Part shown: positions 1 through 51,600 of the stretch, piece by piece
Layout of the letters: each line of letters begins with the position of its first letter
Position numbering within the stretch: position 1 is the first letter of the stretch
NCBI GenBank assembly: GCA_012932295.1
Contig: JAAONU010000016.1
Coordinates: forward strand, 36,301,241-36,365,240
Direction: 5' to 3'
DNA length: 64,000 nt
Source: Cyclina sinensis
Lineage: Eukaryota; Mollusca; Bivalvia; Venerida; Veneridae
The notes under the pieces: model-generated
What the model was told of the DNA's origin: nothing
Databases searched by the model: none
Seen by the model: the letters and a program-made list of their open reading frames with translations, nothing else
Program-made: the position numbers and the translations under genes

Positions 1-1359
1 TATTAACTAATTATTATACAATAACATTCCATATATATTTAAACTGTGTAGATATGAGCTTTGTGTGAAATGTTTGTCTAATTTAACTATGCAGGAGTTC
101 ATTTTTCAGTCATCAACAGGTTCGTCCATCTGAAAAAAGTGGCCGAGATTATCAGGGCTTTACTTGCAAACATGAAAACGCCATTTTGAGAATACTACCT
201 TAAGAGTCTGTAACAGAACATAAAATGGCACATTATTTATTCCCACACTGTTGTCTGTCATGTTGATAATTATTTGCAATTTCTTCAAGCTCAAATATTA
301 TCATTGTCAGGCGATTAATTCTACATGTTCTTGGTTAGTTTTTTATACATCAAAACGAAAATAACAGCTTCGATTTCTATTTTGCAAGTTGTTTGTTTAA
401 ACAACTGCTTAAAAGGCCGACAGAAGACTCGTTCTATGCTGGTTTTTCTAATTTGCATAATAAATTACCTATATCTGCTGTAATCTTGCAGTCCACCATA
501 TTTCAAACTCTTTAACAGTGCATAGTTGAGAACTCTTAGAATGTTGCCTGAAATAACAGAAAAGGATTGAGTGATAAGCTGTCATATCTAACGCTAACAA
601 ATCTACAGAAATGTCTCAGATATTTTTCTATTGTAGAAGGGAAGTTGATAAGAGATATTATATTATAGGGCAATAACACTGACTAGTAATAACGAGAGTG
701 ATAAATGTTTATTTACCTCAAAAGCTGTGAGATATTATAATAATATAAGGCAATAATAGGACTGATGTAAATCTTCATTTACGTCGATAAGAGTTTTTAA
801 GCACTCGAACAAACGCATTTAGTAATCAGACAGTTATACACTTGCCTTTTCGTATCCGCTCCATATTTTTAGTTCTCTTAAAATGCACACCGTTAATGCA
901 CTTCATGTGCTTCATAGTGGAAAGTTTTACAATAAAAATGAGTCTAATGCGCAATATATTAGCTATGTTTATTTATTCCTACCTAACCATAGAAACACTT
1001 CCGTATTCAAATTTTGATTAACAATTTAGTGTATTTACAAAATAATTATTAAAAGATCAAACTAAAACGCATATACAATGTACATATCTGCTTTTAAATT
1101 CATCGTGATTCATTTACTTAAGATGTTCATTGAAGTGTAAATTACAAGAGTAAACACACATTGTGAATCTGTTTTACGTAAACGCTTTAAACATTTTTTT
1201 CAGAAAAAAGATGCTAACAGATCAATGTTCTATAAATACGTCTGTTTTGACAGCGAAAGTAACTTTCCAAAGTAATGAGGAAAATTTTGGGCATTTCCCT
1301 AGTAAAAAAATTACTTAAAGAACAAAATCAAAGAAAAATTATCTGATGTAAATGTATTA
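1..1359. other. AT-rich non-coding sequence, nothing recognised
   Basis: No ORF, repeat or RNA signal that I can support. The sequence is AT-rich and non-repetitive to the eye. Confidence 0.5.
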
Positions 1360-2335
1360 TGGGAACGTTCATGGCGGGCGGTGGGCGTCCAGTTTTGTCC
1401 TGAGCATATCTTCAGCATGCATGGATGTATTTTAATCATACTTGGTACCAATGCTCACCATTATCGGGGGTAGTGCCGGGCGCATGAAGTAGGTCTCTTT
1501 TTTAAAGGTCAAAGTCAGACTTAGAAGTCAGAGAAAAACGCTCTCTCGGAGAAAAACATCTACATGCATTGAGGGATTTTAATATAACTTGGCATAAATG
1601 TTCAGCATTGTAAGCCGGAGTGGTGCTTTCAAAATTTAGGTCTTATGGCTAAGATCAAGGTCATACCTAGAGGTCACAGGTAAGATAAAAATACGAAAAT
1701 GTAAGTATGGACCATTTAGTCATCATGCATTTGGGGATTCCATCAAAAATGTTTGCCATCATGAGACTGAGCATTTCACGTATAAGTCCATATTTGCAAG
1801 GTCAAGGTCACTAGAGATGATGAAATGTCCAGATTTCTTCTGGAGTATATCTTCTACATGCATGGAGATATTCTAGAATTACTTGACAAAAACGTTCAAC
1901 ATCATGACATGTAGTGTTGCATGTATGAAGCTGTCTCTAGGTCAAGGTCACACCTAGAGGACAGTGGGAAACGCTTGTCTGGAGCAAAACTTCTACATGC
2001 ATTGAGAGATTTCAGTATAACTTGGCACAAATGATACCATTGTAAGGCAAAGTGTTGCAAGCAAAATTAATGTCCCTGTGGCTAAGGTAAGGGTCACACA
2101 TAAAGGTTAAAGGTCAGATAAAAATTAATGAAAATGTGGGTATGGACCATTTAGTCATCATGAATTGAGGTATTCTTTTAAAAATGTTCACCATCATGAG
2201 ACTGAGCATTACAAGCATAATCCTGGTCCATATTTGCAAGGTCAAGATCACTAGAGATGATGAAATACCCAGATTTTGTCCGGAGCATATCTTCTACATG
2301 CATGGAGGGACTTTAGTATTACTTGATACAAAAGT
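1360..2335. repeat. Dispersed repeat with degenerate internal units
   Basis: Degenerate units of a few hundred bases recur, marked by CTACATGCAT, GAGCATATCTTC and AAGGTCA (around 1400, 1560, 1850, 1995, 2290). This resembles the inner parts of the hairpin-started repeat families found later in the window. No clear termini are visible. Confidence 0.6.
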
Positions 2336-2905
2336 TTGTTAAACAAAACCGTTCAACTGTGTTTTGAAACAGTATATAGATTACAATGTGCATTTCAGTG
2401 ATTAAGTTATATCTCAATTTGCTTTCGCATTTCTTGTGCAAAATAAACAGTCCCAAATAAAAAGATCAGGGTATTTAAAAGTGTCAAAAAATATTTTTAA
2501 GGAAATAATGAAAGTATCTGTATGATATTTCTGCTCTGTATGTTTAGGTTGTTACCTTTATATTTTGAGATATTCAGCAATGTTCCAACGGGACCCTGTC
2601 ACAATATATAGAAATCTGTTTGGAACAACGCAAAGTAAAAAGTAGTAAACCTGTTTGCCTTTGAACGAAGTACCTTGCGTAAATTGTAAGTGAAAATGCG
2701 AACCTTTTAGGTGCATCAGTACCCTCTATCAGTTCTTAGTAAAGCTATAGGTTATTCTTGTTGTGCTAATAAATATTCCTTTGTTTTTCAAATTCCACCT
2801 CTGAAGTAATAAAGTTGGAACTCTAAAGACCCGTGCCTATTTCTCCATACTGCGGTAGTAACCAGCGAAAATAAAAACTATAAGTTAATTATCTCGAGGG
2901 GCCTA
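2336..2905. other. Non-coding sequence, nothing recognised
   Basis: AT-rich unique-looking sequence without gene or repeat signals. Confidence 0.45.
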
Positions 2906-3670
2906 TAATTAATCCAGTGTCGCCCGGGGAGGGGCCAATAATCAATCCAGTGTCGCCCGGGAGGGGCCAATAATCAACCAAGTGTCGCCCGGGGAAGGGC
3001 CAATAATCAACCCAGTGTCGCCCGGGGAAGGGCCAATAATCAACCCAGTGTCGCCCGGGGAGGGGCCAATAATCAACCCAGTGTCGCCCGGGGAGGGGCC
3101 AATAATCAACCCAGTGTCGCCCGGGGAAGGGCCAATAATCAACCCAGTGTCGCCCGGGGAGGGGCCAATAATCAACCCAGTGTCGCCCGGGGAGGGGCCA
3201 ATAATCAACCCAGTGTCGCCCGGGGAAGGGCCAATAATCAACCCAGTGTTGCCCGGGGAGGGGCCAATAATCAACCCAGTGTCGCCCGGGGAGGGGCCAA
3301 TAATCAACCCAGTGTCGCCCGGGGAAGGGCCAATAATCAACCCAGTGTCGCCCGGGGAGGGGCCAATAATCAACCCAGTGTCGCCCGGGGAGGGGCCAAT
3401 AATCAACCCAGTGTCGCCCGGGGAGGGGCCAATAATCAACCCAGTGTCGCCCGGGGAGGGGCCAATAATCAACCCAGTGTCGCCCGGGGAGGGGCCAATA
3501 ATCAACCCAGTGTCGCCCGGGGAAGGGCCAATAATCAACCCAGTGTCGCCCGGGGAGGGGCCAATAATCAACCCAGTGTCGCCCGGGGAGGGGCCAATAA
3601 TCAACCCAGTGTCGCCCGGGGAGGGGCCAATAATCAACCCAGTGTCGCCCGGGGAAGGGCCAATAATAAA
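2906..3670. repeat. 33-bp GC-rich minisatellite, about 23 units
   Basis: Units of 33 bp built on CCCGGGGAGGGGCCAATAAT followed by CAACCCAGTGTCG repeat from 2906 to about 3670 with almost no divergence. A single G/A change (GGGGAGGGG or GGGGAAGGG) distinguishes two unit types; one unit has a deletion and one a GTGTTG variant. Because 33 is a multiple of three, several frames are open on both strands. These are not genes. Confidence 0.97.
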
Positions 3671-5057
3671 AAAGGGCATTGTGAATTATCAGAGACATTC
3701 GCAAAATAGTGAATGAAAAACTCAACCCAGAGCACATGGATTATTCTAGTTCGAAATGCATCAGTATTCATTTATTTGAGAAGTCATTCATTGAGGTATG
3801 TAATAACCTTCTGTGTGTGAATCACGGAAGTAAACACTCGGTGTGAATGTGTTTAACGCAAATGCATTTATCATTTATCAGAAAAATCAAAGAAAGAGGG
3901 TGTTGTCAGTAAGTCTATTTTTACCACCGAAATAATTATTCAGAGTTACAGTGAAAATTTGGGGATTTCCCTAGCAGACAAGTTATTTACAATATACTCA
4001 TAAAGTTGAAACTATTTCATGCACATGGAAGGCCGTAATTTCATGTGTAAACACAGTCTCAGAGAAAAGGGATATATTTATTTAGAACATTTTAAAAACC
4101 ATTTTGTTTCTAAAAATTCCTTACTGTTTTGAAAATGTAAAAAAAAATCCATGAATATACGATGTTCCGTAACCTAAACATTACATTCTGTTGCAGGTAA
4201 AATACATGATGAACGGTCATAACTAACAACCTACTATATTCCTTTAGAATTTTCGAGGTAAAACTAACATCTCGTTTCTATCACAAACACCAATCAAGGT
4301 ATTAATAGACAAGAACAGAACAGAACGGAAATTGTATGCAGACTTGTACATTGTACATCGTCTTAACACATAATAAGTCACATAAATTATGTCATGCTAA
4401 ATCATATTTACCAACAAATACATATAGTGTTGAAATGTCTAAACAGAAGTTGTTAAGACACAACACACAAGAAATACATATTCAGAGGTAGTGATTTATA
4501 TTTACGGTGAAGTAAGGGTGAAGTATTAAGAAATGTATTACGTTTTAAAAGAGCATCTTTTGCGTAGTTCCAAAGAATCAAAAGATCTATCTTTTCAGTG
4601 GAACTCAGTAGTTTGTGAAACTTTCTTATCGACGTATTTTTCTCTTAAATTGGCGAAGCAATTACATTTACAAATAAAAATTAAAACAAACTCGTCTTCT
4701 ATTCATGCTATTGCAGAGTAAACATTCTCGTTAAAGGCGAGGCTAATTGGTACGACCATATCGCCGGGTTTGATTTCTTAATGGGAGTACAGATAATCTA
4801 AGCCTGACAAAACAAAATCTAAAACAATTTGGAGGTAAATCTACATTTGAAATCATTAATAAAAGTTTTTACATTAATACTACTAGGATTTGAAAAAAAA
4901 CATAAGTCAATCCAAAATTATTCAATAACGTCTTAACATTTTTTACTCATTCTTTATTACAATCTTCGAATGATTGCTTATACACAGATTTCAATATTAT
5001 GTTATCGCTATTTATAATCTTAAACTAATATTTTATAATTCTAATATACAATACCTT
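3671..5057. other. Non-coding sequence, nothing recognised
   Basis: AT-rich sequence. A 62-codon frame at 4533-4721 has no recognisable features. Confidence 0.45.
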
Positions 5058-22000: not shown

Positions 22001-25000
22001 AGATCAAAGCGAAAATCAAGTCGCCTTATCAAAATTTAGTTGCCCTTGGCAAACATGGATAAGAGTCAATCGTGTCATAAATGTGGCATTTTTTTACGAT
22101 ACACAGTTTTTTTTACAATACACATAAACAATCGCTTGCCAGCCACTCATTAGGGAATCCCCATAAAACTCCGCCTCTCGCTATTTCTTGCGTTATAGCC
22201 ATGTGTGACGTACAGAGCGAAGACTCCGCCCATGTTATTTATATCTTTTCAACCAGAACATTCGATACCGACACTTAGGCGAAATAAACCAATCAGCATT
22301 TAGTTTTTAAAAAAGCACTATTGAGTAATGAATAATAATGAGTTTCCTGTCGGATATTTTTAGCTGATTTCAGTGTTTATAGAGTACCACTAATTGATCA
22401 CTATTTGATTGCGATGTTTCGGCAATTATGGGCTTAATTAAGATCAGGTACCTGAGCAGTGACGGCGATTAAACTGTGTAGGTATGTACATTGTATCACA
22501 AGACAAAAAAGGTGCAATCTATCAGGTTTTCTGTGAAAAACAAGTCAGCAATGAAAGGTTGATCGTCACATTTTAATCGTCGATCATTGTTTTCCAAAAG
22601 GTCTGGGTATCAATAGTTGATATTAGTTTCATTATGTTTCTGATACTGGTTGATAAAAGGGATCATTTATTAAAGGGAAATTTATTATGACATAAGCATA
22701 CGTTGTTCCCGAAACAAAGAGTAACGAAACAATATCCACTTCGCTCTGAAGTCTGTCCACTTCTCCCTAACCTTCAACCCAGGGCGAAGTGACTTCTCCC
22801 AAAATTCTGAGTCTAGCGAGAGCCCTGTAATAGCTTTTAGACAACATACCACAAAAAGAACAAAAATTCTTTATGGCATTTTTGTTTTAATTATCGGATT
22901 TATCTATAAGAAAAAGTAAAGTAGATTTATAACAAGCTTAACAAAATGAATGCAACCAATTCTAGCAAATATTTAGTTCATTAAACATGAAGCAGCAAGT
23001 GAAAATCAAGGATAAATTCCGTATGCCATATATATTTCCGTGACCCCATCGTATTTTGTCATTTATAGAAAACATTGTCTTGGAGACTTTTTACAAGGCA
23101 AACTTACAACATTCAATTGACTGATTAAAATAAGTGGTCATGAATTTATTATAAGTACCAGTTTTTTCTTTTTCAATGAAAAATGTTCCTTTTCTCTAAG
23201 ACTTGAATATTTCTGATGGCTTTACTTTACAATTAGAATGAATCAACATACTTCACATCTTAAACATTTTGTAATTTGTTCACATAAAATTCTGGTGAAA
23301 CTGGAAACACATCGTCGGTTGAAAACCAGAGTATAGTATATACCAAATTTTTCAAAAATGGGGTTTTTACATTTTTTATATTATATATTTGAGACACACA
23401 ATGTCTCAAAATTTCAGCTCTATATCTTATCTAGTTTTGAAGATATTGATCAGAGATCGAATGTCGTATCTCATATTAAGCAGTGTATCTTCAACCAAAA
23501 TGTTGCAAAGGCAGATGATATAAAATTTTACCGCCAGAGCAACAAAACGGCATGCCAAATTGTTGCACTTTTAAATGCAAGATTTTGGTTTTAACAACAT
23601 GGAAAAAATAAATGTATAAGTTTTTGCCAGAATATAGTATATGGCGATAATAATGTGTGGCTTTCATTAGTAAGTGTAATATTCAGTTTACTGATATGCC
23701 ATACACTATCATCTGTAAATGCTAAACTTGAGAAAGTTAATTTTTACCATAACTTATCATCCAAACTATGGTGTTTAAAGACACTAGTTTTTGGTTATTT
23801 CTTATAAAGTGATAATGTCCTCGTCTGCCTAATGCCAAACTGTATCATTTGAAAATGATATATTATATCAGCTGTAATCTGGTCCAGGATGGTGCTAATT
23901 GGTGTTGATAACCTGGTATCTCCAATTTCAAACTTAATGTTTGTTGTTGTGGAATGTATTAATTTACAGTGTATATGAAGATACAGGACAGAAAATGATT
24001 AGTGATTAAATCAGAAAAATTTAAGGTATGTTTTCTTTATTTAAAATTATAATTAATACAATAAATACCTATGAAACAGTTTTCAGTAATAAAATATTAC
24101 CCTTCAAATAATAAAAATGATTTGATTTTTTTGTTCTGTTGTATTGCTCTGCTACACAAATGCATCATATTAATTTTAATGAACGATGAACGACTGTAAT
24201 AGTTACTTTGCTCTGCACACCTTTTTTTGGGTGTGTCACAAATAGATAATAGATATTCAATGCTGTCTTAATGATCTCCCTGCAGGTATCTGTAAACAAT
24301 AATGATCTTCTACCTGTCTAATAATAAAGTTTACTTTGAAAATAAGTTAACTGAGATGTGAGGACATCTGTTCACAGGAAGATATGGTATAGTTTGCATC
24401 AACTTTGTAAGCCTTTAAATGTAAGCCAAATCGGAAGTATAACAGGTATTTTTATATGCAAGAATATCATTAGTCGAAACATATTTAATTTTTCAGATAG
24501 GGTCCGACGATAACTCTGATGATCAAGAATGTATTCGTTTAACAACACAACAATTTATTGACAAAGGATATAAACACAGACTACACTGAAACTGTTAAAT
24601 ACAAATAAGGAAGAATTAATTAGACATCTGGGTGTGTATGCACTGCAGAAACAAATAGAACAAGTACAGCAGAGAAGTCTGACTACATGTATATAAGTAA
24701 TCGTGCAAGAAAGAACATGAAAACATACAATAACAATGATGGAAAAAACTTGTCAAGAAGCAGCAAGATATGAGATGCTATACTTTCAATGTCAACAAAG
24801 AACAAGTTCGGCTCTGTAAAAAGTTCTTTTTAAAACCAATAAGTGTCAGCGAAGTGACAGTAACACAGGCTCTGTCAAAAAGGTGTTGGGCCACTTCCAT
24901 GGGTGCGATGAACATGGCAGGCATGTGGCACTAAATAAAACAAACGAAAAGGAACGTACTGAAATAATGAACCATATAGAATTGTTTTAACATTGGAATC

Positions 25001-28000
25001 ACATTGGAATCACAGTATGTCGTCTCTTGCCCCAAACTTGAATGGTAAACGGATGTACGAAGAATATACAGTATATATCAAACTGTAAAGAAAAAGGAAC
25101 CAAACTTGTGGATAAACCAATATACAAGTTTCTAATGAGAAATATATCATTTCCAAAAAAGAAAGAGTTCAATGCACCTCTTGTAATAAGTATGTAAATG
25201 CAAAAGCAGATGGGACACCAGAGGGAAAGTTACAGGAAGATTATAAGCTACATCAAGGAAGAAAGCAACTTGCAAGAGAACAAAAACACAAGGATTGTAA
25301 CATTGCAAAAACAAAACAACAAAGTGAAAACATGTACATTTGATTAGCTATCCATCTTGTATACCCCTTGTTCACTGGTTAGCCTGATGTACTCTATGAG
25401 AAAACTCTCCTGTTACAATCTTTCAATCTGTAGTGCAGATGACAAAAAAGCAACAAGTTATATCTGGTCGGAAACAGACGGCAAGTGTGGGTCAAATGAG
25501 ATCACAACATGTCTGAATATGTACCTGTCAAGTTTCAAGGCATCAGCAGAACATGTTATTCTTTACTCTGATTCATGTACAGGGCAAAATAAAAATCAGA
25601 TTGTTGCATTTTGCCTCCTACATTCAGTTACTATTATACCATACCTGGACCTAAAATAATTGACCATAAGCCACACCCACATGGAGTGTGGCTTGATGCA
25701 TTCTGCAACTAAGCATGCAAAATCAAAAACAAAAAATATTCATGCCAACCCAATAGTAAACAGTAATAACAATGGCTCAAAGAGGAAATCAGAATCATGT
25801 TGTGACTCTGAAATACTATGATTTCAAATACTTCAAGTCGGTGAAATCAAAAACACAAAGAGCATCTAAGACAGAGGGTGGAAAGAAGCCCGGATGGAAG
25901 CAGATGAAGTGGATACGCTTTCAAAAAACTGACCCAGAGATATGCCACCTCAAGTTCAATCTTGAAGAAGCAGACGAATTCTAGAGAGTAAAAGTTTCAG
26001 GAGTTAAGCATTCAAATGAGCAAATGCAGACTGTATACAAAGGAAAGTTGGCAATATCCAGTGCAAAGAAAAAGTATTGAATTTCCTTAGGCAAGCAACG
26101 AGTTATACCTGCTGAATTTCACGAACATTATAAGGGGTTAGCTAGTTAAGTTAGACTTAATGTCTGCCAGAACCGGACATGTAAGAGTGATGATGATACT
26201 GACATGGATTTACACTTTTAGAATGAAGGATTATAAGTATGACTATTGGTGGGTAGAAGTGTTATATCAATTAAATTTATGTATGACTTCAAATTCCTTG
26301 GAGTAAAAATTAACTTAAAAATCTGTGTTTGAGTACTGACTGCAGGAAGTATTTAAACCATGAAACTCGTGTATGACTGCTCATTGCTATAAGTAAGATG
26401 ACTATGGAATTCATGTATGACTACAGATTGCTGGAAGTAAAGTAACCATAAGTTCATGTCTGACCACAGTATGACTACAGATTGAATTTGTTATTTCACT
26501 ATGAAATTCATGTATGACTTCTTTTTACTAGAAGTAAGATAACCATGAAATTCCTGTATGACTACTTTTTACTAGAAGTAAGATAACCATGAAATTCATG
26601 TATGACTACTGATTGCCTGAGTATGATAACCATGAATATCTATCTACTTTTGCAAGACCAGGATATTCATAGAACAACTAGTACCGATAACAATGATGTG
26701 AAATTCAATGAATACCGATTAACAGTGATTAAACCTATTGAGACAGTGAAATCAGATGAAATGTTCGGGCCTAAAGGGTTTGTACAATACATTTTAGACG
26801 AATCTGGTAAAATGAAGTGAAACAATATCAGTGTTGTTTACTTGTTTATACACATCTTTCTCATGCCAATAGTTCCACAAAATATCCACCATGTAAGCCT
26901 TTCAATAATTACATTCATTTGATAATGGTGTTTTAAAAAATTACAAGAGTACAATTTTTTCACATCTTAAAATACCATGTTTAAGTTCTGATTCTTTAGT
27001 TTAAGAAATATTTTGTTGAAACCAAAGTGCTTCATTTCAGTTTACTTTGTTTTTGACACAGATTTGGGGAATGGGTGTCTACATATTGTACTGCCATATA
27101 AATGCATGTGCAATTACCATGATAAAGCGCAACTGGAACGGCAGTCAATTTTTATTTTTATAAATGCCAAACTATCGCTTTCATATATACAATATTCTGA
27201 CTCACTATTTACAAGCAGTGGATACATAAGGTCCACAAAACTATACCATGGTACAGTTATATACTATGTTCTGGCATTTAATTCCCTTTGATATACTCAC
27301 TTATCATAAAAGCTAAAGACACTCATCCATAGATGTAACAGTTTGGTCGTCTTAGGTGCAGATCAAAATGAAATTTGCCAAAAAGCCAAAACCTTTTATC
27401 CAAGGATGAGATGTTATACCTATGTACAAATAGTGAAATTTGGGCAAATTTAACATGCCAGAACAAAAACATTGAATTTTGTACATAATGTAAGAGCTAA
27501 TGTTTTGAAACATTTACAAATCGCTTAAGTGCGCATTTGGCCATCATTGTGCTGGATATGTCTTAAATATTTTAGTTTTTGTATATTTGACAAAGTTTTT
27601 TCAACTTCCTGAACATTTTCGAAAAAGGCAGATACTAGGGTCTGGTTTTCAACCGACGACATCCATTAGGTTACCAGACATTCCACCAAAAAGTCACTGA
27701 ATTTTGATGCCAGAAGTACACTAGTTTAAAAGAATAAGTTGAATAGCAACCAATCCACATATTTGCTGTCTGTCATAGTCTTTTAAAGTGAACTCAATTT
27801 CTGTTTAGAAGTTTGGGGAATTTTTTAAAGATCTATGAAAGAATCTTTCATTTTAAAAGTGTTTCTAATTCTTTTTTAAATTGATTTTGTAAAATAAAAA
27901 AAAAACAATTAACTAATAATGCTTATCGAAAACGTTATACTTGTCACTTGGACATCTGACTTTATTTTTGGGACAACTCTATTTTGCCCTAGTCAGTTGT

Positions 28001-48600: not shown

Positions 48601-51600
48601 AGGCAGATTGGTCATGACAGATGACCCCTGTAGTTTTAAGGGTTACAAGGTCAAAGGTCATGGTCACAATAACCTTGAAAATATCTAGGGAATCCTTGGG
48701 CCCAGGTTCTTCAGACAGTATGTAGGTTTGTCATGATAGTAGATGACAACTATAGTTTTTCAGGTCATTGGGTCAAGGGTCACAGTAACCTTGAAAAGCG
48801 AAATGGTTTCCGATGAATAACTGTAGAATGCTTGGGCCCATGTTCCTCAAACTTGGTTTATAGGTTGTTCATGACTTGTAGATGAGCATTTTAGTTTATC
48901 AGGTCACTGGGTGAAAGACCAAGGTTTTTGAATAGCAAAATGGTTTCCGATCAATAACTATAGAATGCTTGGTCCAAGCTCGTCAAAACTTCTTGGCTGT
49001 CTCTAGGGATAAGGCATTAGGGGAAGTGGGGGGAAGGGGGGGGGGGGGGGGTGCGGGGTGACAATATGATGTACAAACATCTCGTTTTAAAGGAAATACA
49101 ATGCTCTGAATTGTTAGATATATATGCCTCTATCAAGAGTATTAAATTCTTGAGAAAATGCGTAACATTCTTGGTTGGCACAATGATATTGTAACATTAT
49201 TATTTGTCGAGTTTCCATTTTATGAAAATAAAATGTCATTTCAAATACTGGTACTAGTAATTTTACCACAAATTGTACTGATAGGTGTAATTTTCAAAAA
49301 AAAGATTGTAAATCTTGGTAGCCAGTGTCTTTTTGAGCTTCTAGTAATATGACATGGTACATCTGGCACAAGCAGTTTACCCAGGACTTTATCAGGTCTT
49401 GCATCTCTGTCACTCTGGAATGATAGAGGAGTGAAATGTGACAATATTTAATCATGTATTGTAAAGATTACCAGTCACACTACAAATTTTTCTTAAAGAC
49501 AAAGCAAGCTTGAATCTTTGTTCTTTCAGCCTTGTAGAGTAAGAAACTGGGAGTTACATGTACATTTCAAAGTCCATGGTCAAGGAAAAAGTCTTTTTGG
49601 AGATGGTTTTGCTGTCTGGTATGCAAAAGAGAGAAACCAACTTGGTATGTATTAAATCAGGTTATGTGTGTAACTATATAAAACAGGTTACGTGTGTATA
49701 CAAAACCATCTTTCAGTGTATTAAGTAATAATTTTCCAATGTAATTGGAGTAAGACTTGTTTTGTAGTTTGAAAACTACATCTAGGCAGACAGCCAGAAA
49801 TACCAAGATATTGATGGATCCCAGACCCATCACATTTGCATGATTTAACAAAGAAGTACAGTAATATTTTCACCATGAACAAGTATATTTATAACAAAAG
49901 AACATATGGTAATGTTTGTGCGTGTGGATCCATGAATTATAAATGCTATTCAGATAGTATTGATGGATCCCTGTCCTGCAAATTTACATGATTTAACAAA
50001 GAAGTACAGTTATATTTTTACCACAAACAAGTATAAAATTTAAAAATTAGCATCAAAATTTATTTTCCAGGTCCTGTGTTTGGAAGTAAAGATTACTTCA
50101 CTGGTTTAGCAATTTTTGCAGACACATACAGCAACCACAATGGACCACATAATGTAAGTTTTTAGCTCACCTGAGCACAAAGTGCTCAGGGTGAGCTTTC
50201 CTGATCAGTCTTTGTCTGTCGGTCCGTCCGTCTTCAACTTTTCATTCAATCGACATCTCCTCTGAAACCAATGGGCCAAATTTAATGAAACTTGCTTGGG
50301 ATGTTCCTTGCTTGAAGCTCTACCAAGATATTTCAAATGGTTCTGGTCCATTGCATTTCTGGTTCACAGGAGCTAAAAATAGATTTTAAAAGTTGGATCT
50401 TTAAAAATCTTCTCCGAAACCTCGAGGCCTAGAGTTTAGATATTTGGTATGAATCATCATCTAGTGGACCTGTACCAAGTTTGTTCAAATTATGACCCTG
50501 GGGGTCAAAACTGACCCTACCCCAGGGGTCAGTTGATTTTACATAGATTTATTTAGGGAAAACTTAAAAATCTTCTTGTCAGAAACCACAAGGTCTAGAG
50601 TTAAGATATTTGGTGTGTAGTATTGTCTAGTGGACCTCTACTAAGTTTGTTCAATCATAGCCACTGGGTCAAAATTGGCCCTGTCCTGGAGGTGACATAG
50701 AGTTATATAGGAAAAACTTTAAAAAAATCTTCACATCAGAAACCAAAAGGCATAGAACTTAGATATTTTGTATGTAGCATTGTCTAGAGGACCTCTACCA
50801 AGTTTGTTCAAATCATAGCCCCTGGGTCAAAAAAGGCCCCGCCCAAGGGGTCACATGCTTTACATAGAGTTATATAGGAAAAGCTTTAAAAATCTTCTTT
50901 TCAGATACCACAAGAATTAGAGGTTAGATATTTGGTGTGCAGCATTGTCCAGTGGACCTCTACCAAGTTTGTTCAAATCGTGGTCCCTGGGTCAAAAGTG
51001 GCCCCACCCCAAGAGTCACATGTTTTACATAGAGTTACATGTGTATACAGGAAAAACTTTAAAAAATCTTCTTGTCAGAAACCTCAAGGCCTACAGTTTA
51101 GATATTTGGTGTGTAGCATTGTCTAGTGGACCTCTACTAAGTTTTTTCAAATCATAGCCCTGGGGCAAAAAAGGCCCTGCCGAGGGGGTCACATGTTTTA
51201 AATAGAGTTATATAGGAAAAACTTAAAAAATCTTCTTGCCAGAAACTACGAGGCGTAGAGTTTAGATATTTGGTGTGCAGCATTGTCTAGTAGACCTTTA
51301 CCAAGTTTGTTCAAATCAGGACCCTGGGGTCAGAACTAGTCCCAGCGGGGGTGGGGGTGTGGGGGGAGTAATTTGATTTTACACAAGGACTTATATAGGG
51401 AAAACTTAAAAAATCTTCTGCTCTGAAACACCAAGGGCTAGACCTTCAATTGTTCATTGTTATGTCTCCCGCCAACCCCGCTCTTCTGATAGAGAGGTAT
51501 TGTTTTTGCCCTGTTCATGGGTGTCTGTTTGTCTGTCTGTCTGTCACATTTCATTTCATATGTCAGTCTGTAGACAAAATAGTTTCTGCATTATTACTCG

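Follow-up and report, generated by a model that had tools for sequence, protein, structure and literature searches.

A dead DUF7869-type transposon family with exact, repeated ends and 4-bp target-site duplications in the bivalve Cyclina sinensis

Background

Among the described DNA transposons, the closest to the element considered here belong to Sola, with 4-bp target-site duplications (TSDs), a three-aspartate (DDD) transposase and, in most cases, a length of 2-9 kb (PMC10741241), and in particular to Sola2, whose amoebozoan representatives combine AT-rich TSDs of the form AWWT (including ATAT, AAAT and ATTT) with terminal inverted repeats (TIRs) of 12-21 bp and an 888-residue transposase (PMC3627910), and whose elements have been counted in bivalve genomes (PMC10294476). 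Ginger1 and metazoan Ginger2 also produce 4-bp TSDs, those of Ginger1 being CCGG or CCGT/ACGG next to TGTNR ends, and some Ginger1 proteins contain an OTU domain (PMC2836005). Tc1/mariner elements duplicate a 2-bp TA (PMC10741241, PMC5199201) and piggyBac targets TTAA (PMC5199201). The present analysis concerns a stretch of 64,000 nucleotides from Cyclina sinensis (contig JAAONU010000016.1, positions 36,301,241 to 36,365,240, forward strand; hereafter the window), which carries at 23313..27658 (plus strand) an element of 4346 bp with about 20 copies in the genome and the ruins of a gene of the DUF7869 type.

The element is most probably a cut-and-paste transposon, likely of Sola2 type, which lost its gene early and has been mobilised in trans by a related transposase. 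It represents a new family, dead in its gene yet mobile and with exact repeated ends, whose 4-bp TSD is in itself already known from Sola and Ginger. A Pfam domain of unknown function (DUF7869) thereby acquires element boundaries, a target site and a catalytic core, the last by prediction. Transposon masking could be extended to the "DUF7869" genes that belong to this lineage, and the presence of unbroken copies in the genome makes a transposition assay straightforward.

Ends, copies and target sites

The first 18 bases of the element (CGTCGGTTGAAAACCAGA, left TIR, 23313..23330, plus strand) are the reverse complement of its last 18 (right TIR, 27641..27658, minus strand), with a weaker likeness continuing inward (ungapped identity of 25/30 over the first 30 bases and 32/48 over the first 48), and both ends are flanked by the unstranded repeat ACAT, at 23309..23312 and 27659..27662. 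A preliminary description of the window had placed the ends and the ACAT repeats at these coordinates, which the sequence bears out, and its TIR of 18 perfect and about 48 imperfect bp is a fair account.

The genome (903 Mb) was searched with both ends, the resulting copy counts being lower bounds, and the left end (105 bases) was found at 19 places including the window and the right end (122 bases) at 20. Eighteen left-end places were fetched besides the window; 17 of them are bounded at both ends and align with the window element from first to last base, some with internal indels, while the other (L026) is a partial match that carries an insertion and whose right end likely lies beyond the fetched stretch. 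Adding the window to these 17, boundaries are identical and a perfect 4-bp TSD is present in all 18 bounded copies, with a chance of about 0.0056 per copy given the base composition of the window. A chance origin of the shared ends and TSDs is excluded, and so is a fortuitous TIR pair; the search by terminal sequence proposed in the preliminary description has thus returned the same ends in every bounded copy. As expected of a DDE/D cut-and-paste transposon, the TIR ends are fixed at many sites and the TSD is constant in size. The TIR is perfect over 18 bp in 16/18 copies, and L019 and L020 have one common substitution at TIR position 5.

The TSDs are ATAT (nine copies), ACAT (two) and ATGT, ACTT, ATTT, TGAT, AAAT, AAGT and ATAA (one each), with A as the first base in 17/18, T as the fourth in 17/18, and a surrounding target tendency of AAAC-ATAT-GTTT. 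Pairwise identity among 17 aligned copies (L023 being left out of the alignment) is 94-100% over ungapped columns, and the near-identical pairs L019/L020 and L014/L018 are recent copies at new sites, separate and with differing TSDs. An origin of the copies by segmental or tandem duplication has next to no probability: the flanks of L010 do contain a local duplication and some flanks lie within other repeats, but the bounded copies differ in their immediate flanks, each has its own 4-bp TSD, and similarity ends at the boundaries, which contradicts such an origin.

Insertion with a 4-bp stagger predicts empty sites with a single TSD, and these were found for two insertions. When the flanks of L010 are joined with one TSD, 116/116 bases match neighbouring sequence with a single ATGT. 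L018, in turn, sits inside a tandem array, and six other units of the fetched locus match its joined flanks (87-91%) with one ATAT; on the other side of the balance, farther units of this repeat elsewhere (72-76%) are gapped at the junction and uninformative. The 4-bp duplication claimed for the element therefore stands, in the 18 bounded copies and at two empty sites. As a separate observation, the window itself contains at 50408-51343 repeat units with BLAST offsets of roughly 165 bp that are 73-77% like the repeat hosting the L018 insertion.

A broken transposase gene

The element encloses a broken transposase coding region (24761..26140, plus strand), in two frames with stops, which is homologous to residues 515-985 of the protein of L057, an unbroken relative in the same genome; remnants across the family match parts of residues 474-988 of that protein (tblastn), likewise with stops and frame changes. 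Both motifs, SDSCTGQNKN and HTHMEC, are found in the window element, and the longest remnant of the DUF7869 region comprises 103 codons (25348..25656, plus strand). The open reading frame (ORF) of the window reaches 13.9 bits with the Pfam DUF7869 profile (PF25273; cut-off 26, E 0.042), which weighs against the assignment, but L057, identical to the window at 52/101 residues, scores 29.5 bits, and it is through this relative that the window is linked to DUF7869. The naming of the element as a DUF7869-type transposon is upheld through this relative, whose profile score exceeds the cut-off while that of the window's own ORF stays below it. Weak sub-cut-off Pfam matches of window ORFs (SCRL, zf-C3HC, Ribosomal_L31e) were dismissed as noise.

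The copy in the window had been called dead, rightly, as it has stops, frame changes and no stop-to-stop frame of at least 110 codons; the longest such frame among the 18 bounded copies has 163 codons. On the plus strand, the predicted catalytic triad begins with an Asp whose codon (25342..25344) is followed by a TAG stop (25345-25347), a position that holds TAG in 14/17 aligned copies, is deleted along with the Asp in two and encodes Lys in one (L012). The codon of the second Asp (25570..25572) lies within SDSCxGQNKN, and the third position (HTHMEC-D, 25690..25692) is Gly in 15/17 aligned copies including the window, which retains two of the three residues, Asp in one (L016) and deleted in another. 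Since all 18 bounded copies are broken, with lesions mostly in common, the family is non-autonomous, and the simplest reading is that it spread as non-autonomous full-length copies. The preliminary description had noted neither this nor the unbroken relatives with similar ends described below.

Could the family have been autonomous until recently, its intact masters being lost or unassembled and its lesions recurrent or distributed by gene conversion? The Asp of L016 and the Lys that replaces the stop in L012 speak against an early loss, and because of them one lineage could have kept a functional copy until a later time; genome searches, moreover, give lower bounds. Recent autonomy is nonetheless improbable, as the stop and the Gly are each found on either side when a FastTree tree is rooted at its midpoint, the variable sites of the best-kept 103 codons are spread evenly (15, 10 and 12 at codon positions 1, 2 and 3), and both near-identical pairs are dead.

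Unbroken relatives and a candidate source of the transposase

The gene was most likely lost before or early in the spread, and the mobility of the ruined copies is then probably owed to the enzyme of another element. L057 is an element of 4435 bp that starts with CGTCAGTTAAA, has the inverted end CGTCGGTTAAA and is flanked by ATAT; its frame (1306-4338, 1011 codons stop-to-stop) encodes, besides DUF7869, an N-terminal OTU domain (residues 231-362, E 1.8e-9). It resembles the window element in its CGTCRG ends, 4-bp TSD, near protein and left subterminal DNA, and differs from it in the unbroken frame, the OTU domain and an identity of 51-53% in the catalytic part. The likeness of the left subterminal 120 bases (23333..23452 in the window, plus strand) has a z-score of 5.3, reached by 0/500 shuffles; the right-hand stretch shows no such likeness (z 0.0), which tells against this source. 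Being the nearest unbroken protein fetched and having similar left subterminal DNA, the OTU-DUF7869 type of L057 is the best transposase candidate seen.

A second family, with a DUF7869 frame of 913 codons (26.9 bits, above the cut-off), is represented by three fetched copies, which measure 5179-5183 bp, have the ends CGTCGGTGAAATTC and are flanked by the TSDs ATAT, ATCT and TTAT; it shows no clear subterminal signature in common with the window element (z -0.1 left, 1.8 right). The 4-bp TSD and the CGTCRG ends are common to the three families. Pfam matches of both unbroken proteins at E <= 0.01 are DUF7869, OTU (L057) and a sub-cut-off DUF7808, with no integrase model at that threshold and no NCBIfam family at E <= 1. 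Judging by these unbroken relatives, DUF7869 is a transposase of a known general type that acts by cut and paste.

Homologues of the two relatives searched number 849 and 504 at E <= 0.001, in sets that may overlap, and the best 120 of each were listed; those named among them include molluscs, insects, echinoderms and a fish, the nearest being molluscs, which suggests a molluscan host. Precomputed OTU annotation (PF02338) was seen in 39 of the best 120 of the 504, whose named sources include the molluscs Mytilus and Littorina. No publication pairing OTU with a Sola DNA transposon and its transposase was found in the library searched. Four homologues (P0012, P0136, P0147 and P0234) come from metagenome-assembled genomes named Sedimenticola and Thiodiazotropha, which are bivalve gill symbionts, and these matches are probably host contamination. 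In the viral contigs (viral_contigs), 12 stretches fit a pattern and none encodes a relative. A wider generalisation would be rather speculative, namely that DUF7869 might constitute a widespread animal transposase lineage with CGTCGG ends and a palindromic 4-bp AT target, whose mobile cargo consists of dead copies of great length, and not of miniature inverted-repeat transposable elements, and is driven by a transposase fused to an OTU protease of deubiquitinase-like type.

The predicted catalytic core

Residues D546, D623 and D664 are invariant and make up the predicted Asp triad. In the model of P0001, a relative 76% identical to the 913-codon protein, three acidic residues lie in a predicted RNase H-like core. 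The best structural matches in VIA-align are Tc1/mariner transposases (Mos1, SETMAR; the highest mariner rows are 9-10% identical), integrase folds also ranking high. Several points pull the other way: E671 is likewise invariant, which leaves Glu as a candidate for the third acidic residue; the P0001 model has a predicted template modelling score (pTM) of 0.52, with 242/812 residues at a predicted local distance difference test score (pLDDT) below 50; some VIA-align rows have a root-mean-square deviation (rmsd) >10; and of the 642 PDB matches that Foldseek alone yields at E <= 10 none reaches E <= 0.001, the top one being the NurA nuclease (E 0.011). By sequence, the PDB gave a single match (E 0.041), to a seemingly unrelated chain. 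Of the RNase H-like fold anticipated in the preliminary description, the core is predicted in the relative, but the Foldseek comparison on its own is non-significant.

On these grounds, the ancestral gene would have encoded a DUF7869 transposase with an RNase H-like fold, probably catalysing with three Asp, and Cys/His motifs preceding the core may bind zinc. Such an enzyme would cut at the CGTCGG-ended TIRs and insert the element into the AT-rich, roughly palindromic target by joining its ends at positions staggered by 4 bp, whose repair would leave the TSD, presumably by cut and paste rather than another DDE route; dead copies could then be moved in trans by the transposase of a related element.

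Classification

Kolobok elements target TTAA, and none of the 18 TSDs has this sequence, which sets aside Kolobok as well as piggyBac. The Tc1/mariner transposases share with DUF7869 a modelled RNase H-like core, but they differ in their 2-bp TA duplication, in the low identity noted above and in size, the DUF7869 protein being far larger.

A 4-bp TSD had been considered unusual among animal DNA transposons, an opinion that finds no support, as Sola (PMC10741241), amoebozoan Sola2 (PMC3627910), and Ginger1 and metazoan Ginger2 (PMC2836005) have it. That the element is a Ginger transposon is very unlikely, even though it shares the 4-bp TSD, its relative L057 has an OTU fusion reminiscent of some Ginger1 proteins and integrase folds rank high in VIA-align. 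The TSDs are AT-rich and the ends CGTCGG, against CCGG or CCGT/ACGG and TGTNR in Ginger1, which is ruled out by these two traits; the integrase of Ginger is of Gypsy type, whereas neither unbroken protein yields a Pfam integrase model at E <= 0.01, and the OTU of Ginger1 proteins is C-terminal, not N-terminal as in L057.

The window element stands for a new family within a known kind, probably of Sola2 type by description and not by sequence. It has a 4-bp AT-rich TSD (four bp in 18/18, AWWT in 11/18), a short TIR, a related transposase of about 900 residues, a fitting element size and a predicted DDD-like triad whose third acid may be Glu, all compared with Sola or Sola2 by description. Against this placement, it draws on these described traits and not on aligned sequences; furthermore, 7/18 TSDs fall outside AWWT (ACAT twice, ATGT, ACTT, TGAT, AAGT and ATAA). 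DUF7869 elements might alternatively be a superfamily of their own, separate from Sola and defined by a DDD triad, 4-bp AT-rich TSDs and CGTCGG ends. The CGTCRG ends are kept in three families although the proteins of L057 and P0001 are only 31% identical, no source name, some being truncated, among the best 240 listed of the 849 and 504 homologues mentions Sola, and in the literature searched, a limited library, no link between DUF7869 and transposons was found. Nevertheless, TSD size, AT-rich TSD, short TIR, transposase length and element size all fit Sola/Sola2, and bivalve genomes are reported to contain Sola2 (PMC10294476), which makes a separate superfamily unlikely.

Other observations

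DUF7869 matches in the genome number 133 at E <= 0.001 (150 of 234 candidates scored), and they are pieces, sometimes several per gene. High-scoring pieces adjoin and cover successive parts of the profile in an exon-like manner, for example at C13:25727665-25729404 and C6:35391935-35393667, and one high-scoring match (L042) reads HTHEDLDAGF, unlike the window motif. The reverse complement of another locus (L062) contains a 252-codon frame (718-1473), F-box-like by eye, followed by a 795-codon DUF7869-like frame (1427-3811); in the 5-kb stretch around the latter, neither a CGTCGG-like end nor a 12-bp inverted match of one outer 1.5-kb part to the other was found. Finally, the window element includes an internal tandem repeat (26501..26636, plus strand; 3.1 copies of a 44-bp unit), whose copy number may vary, as many overlapping BLAST matches are seen in other copies.
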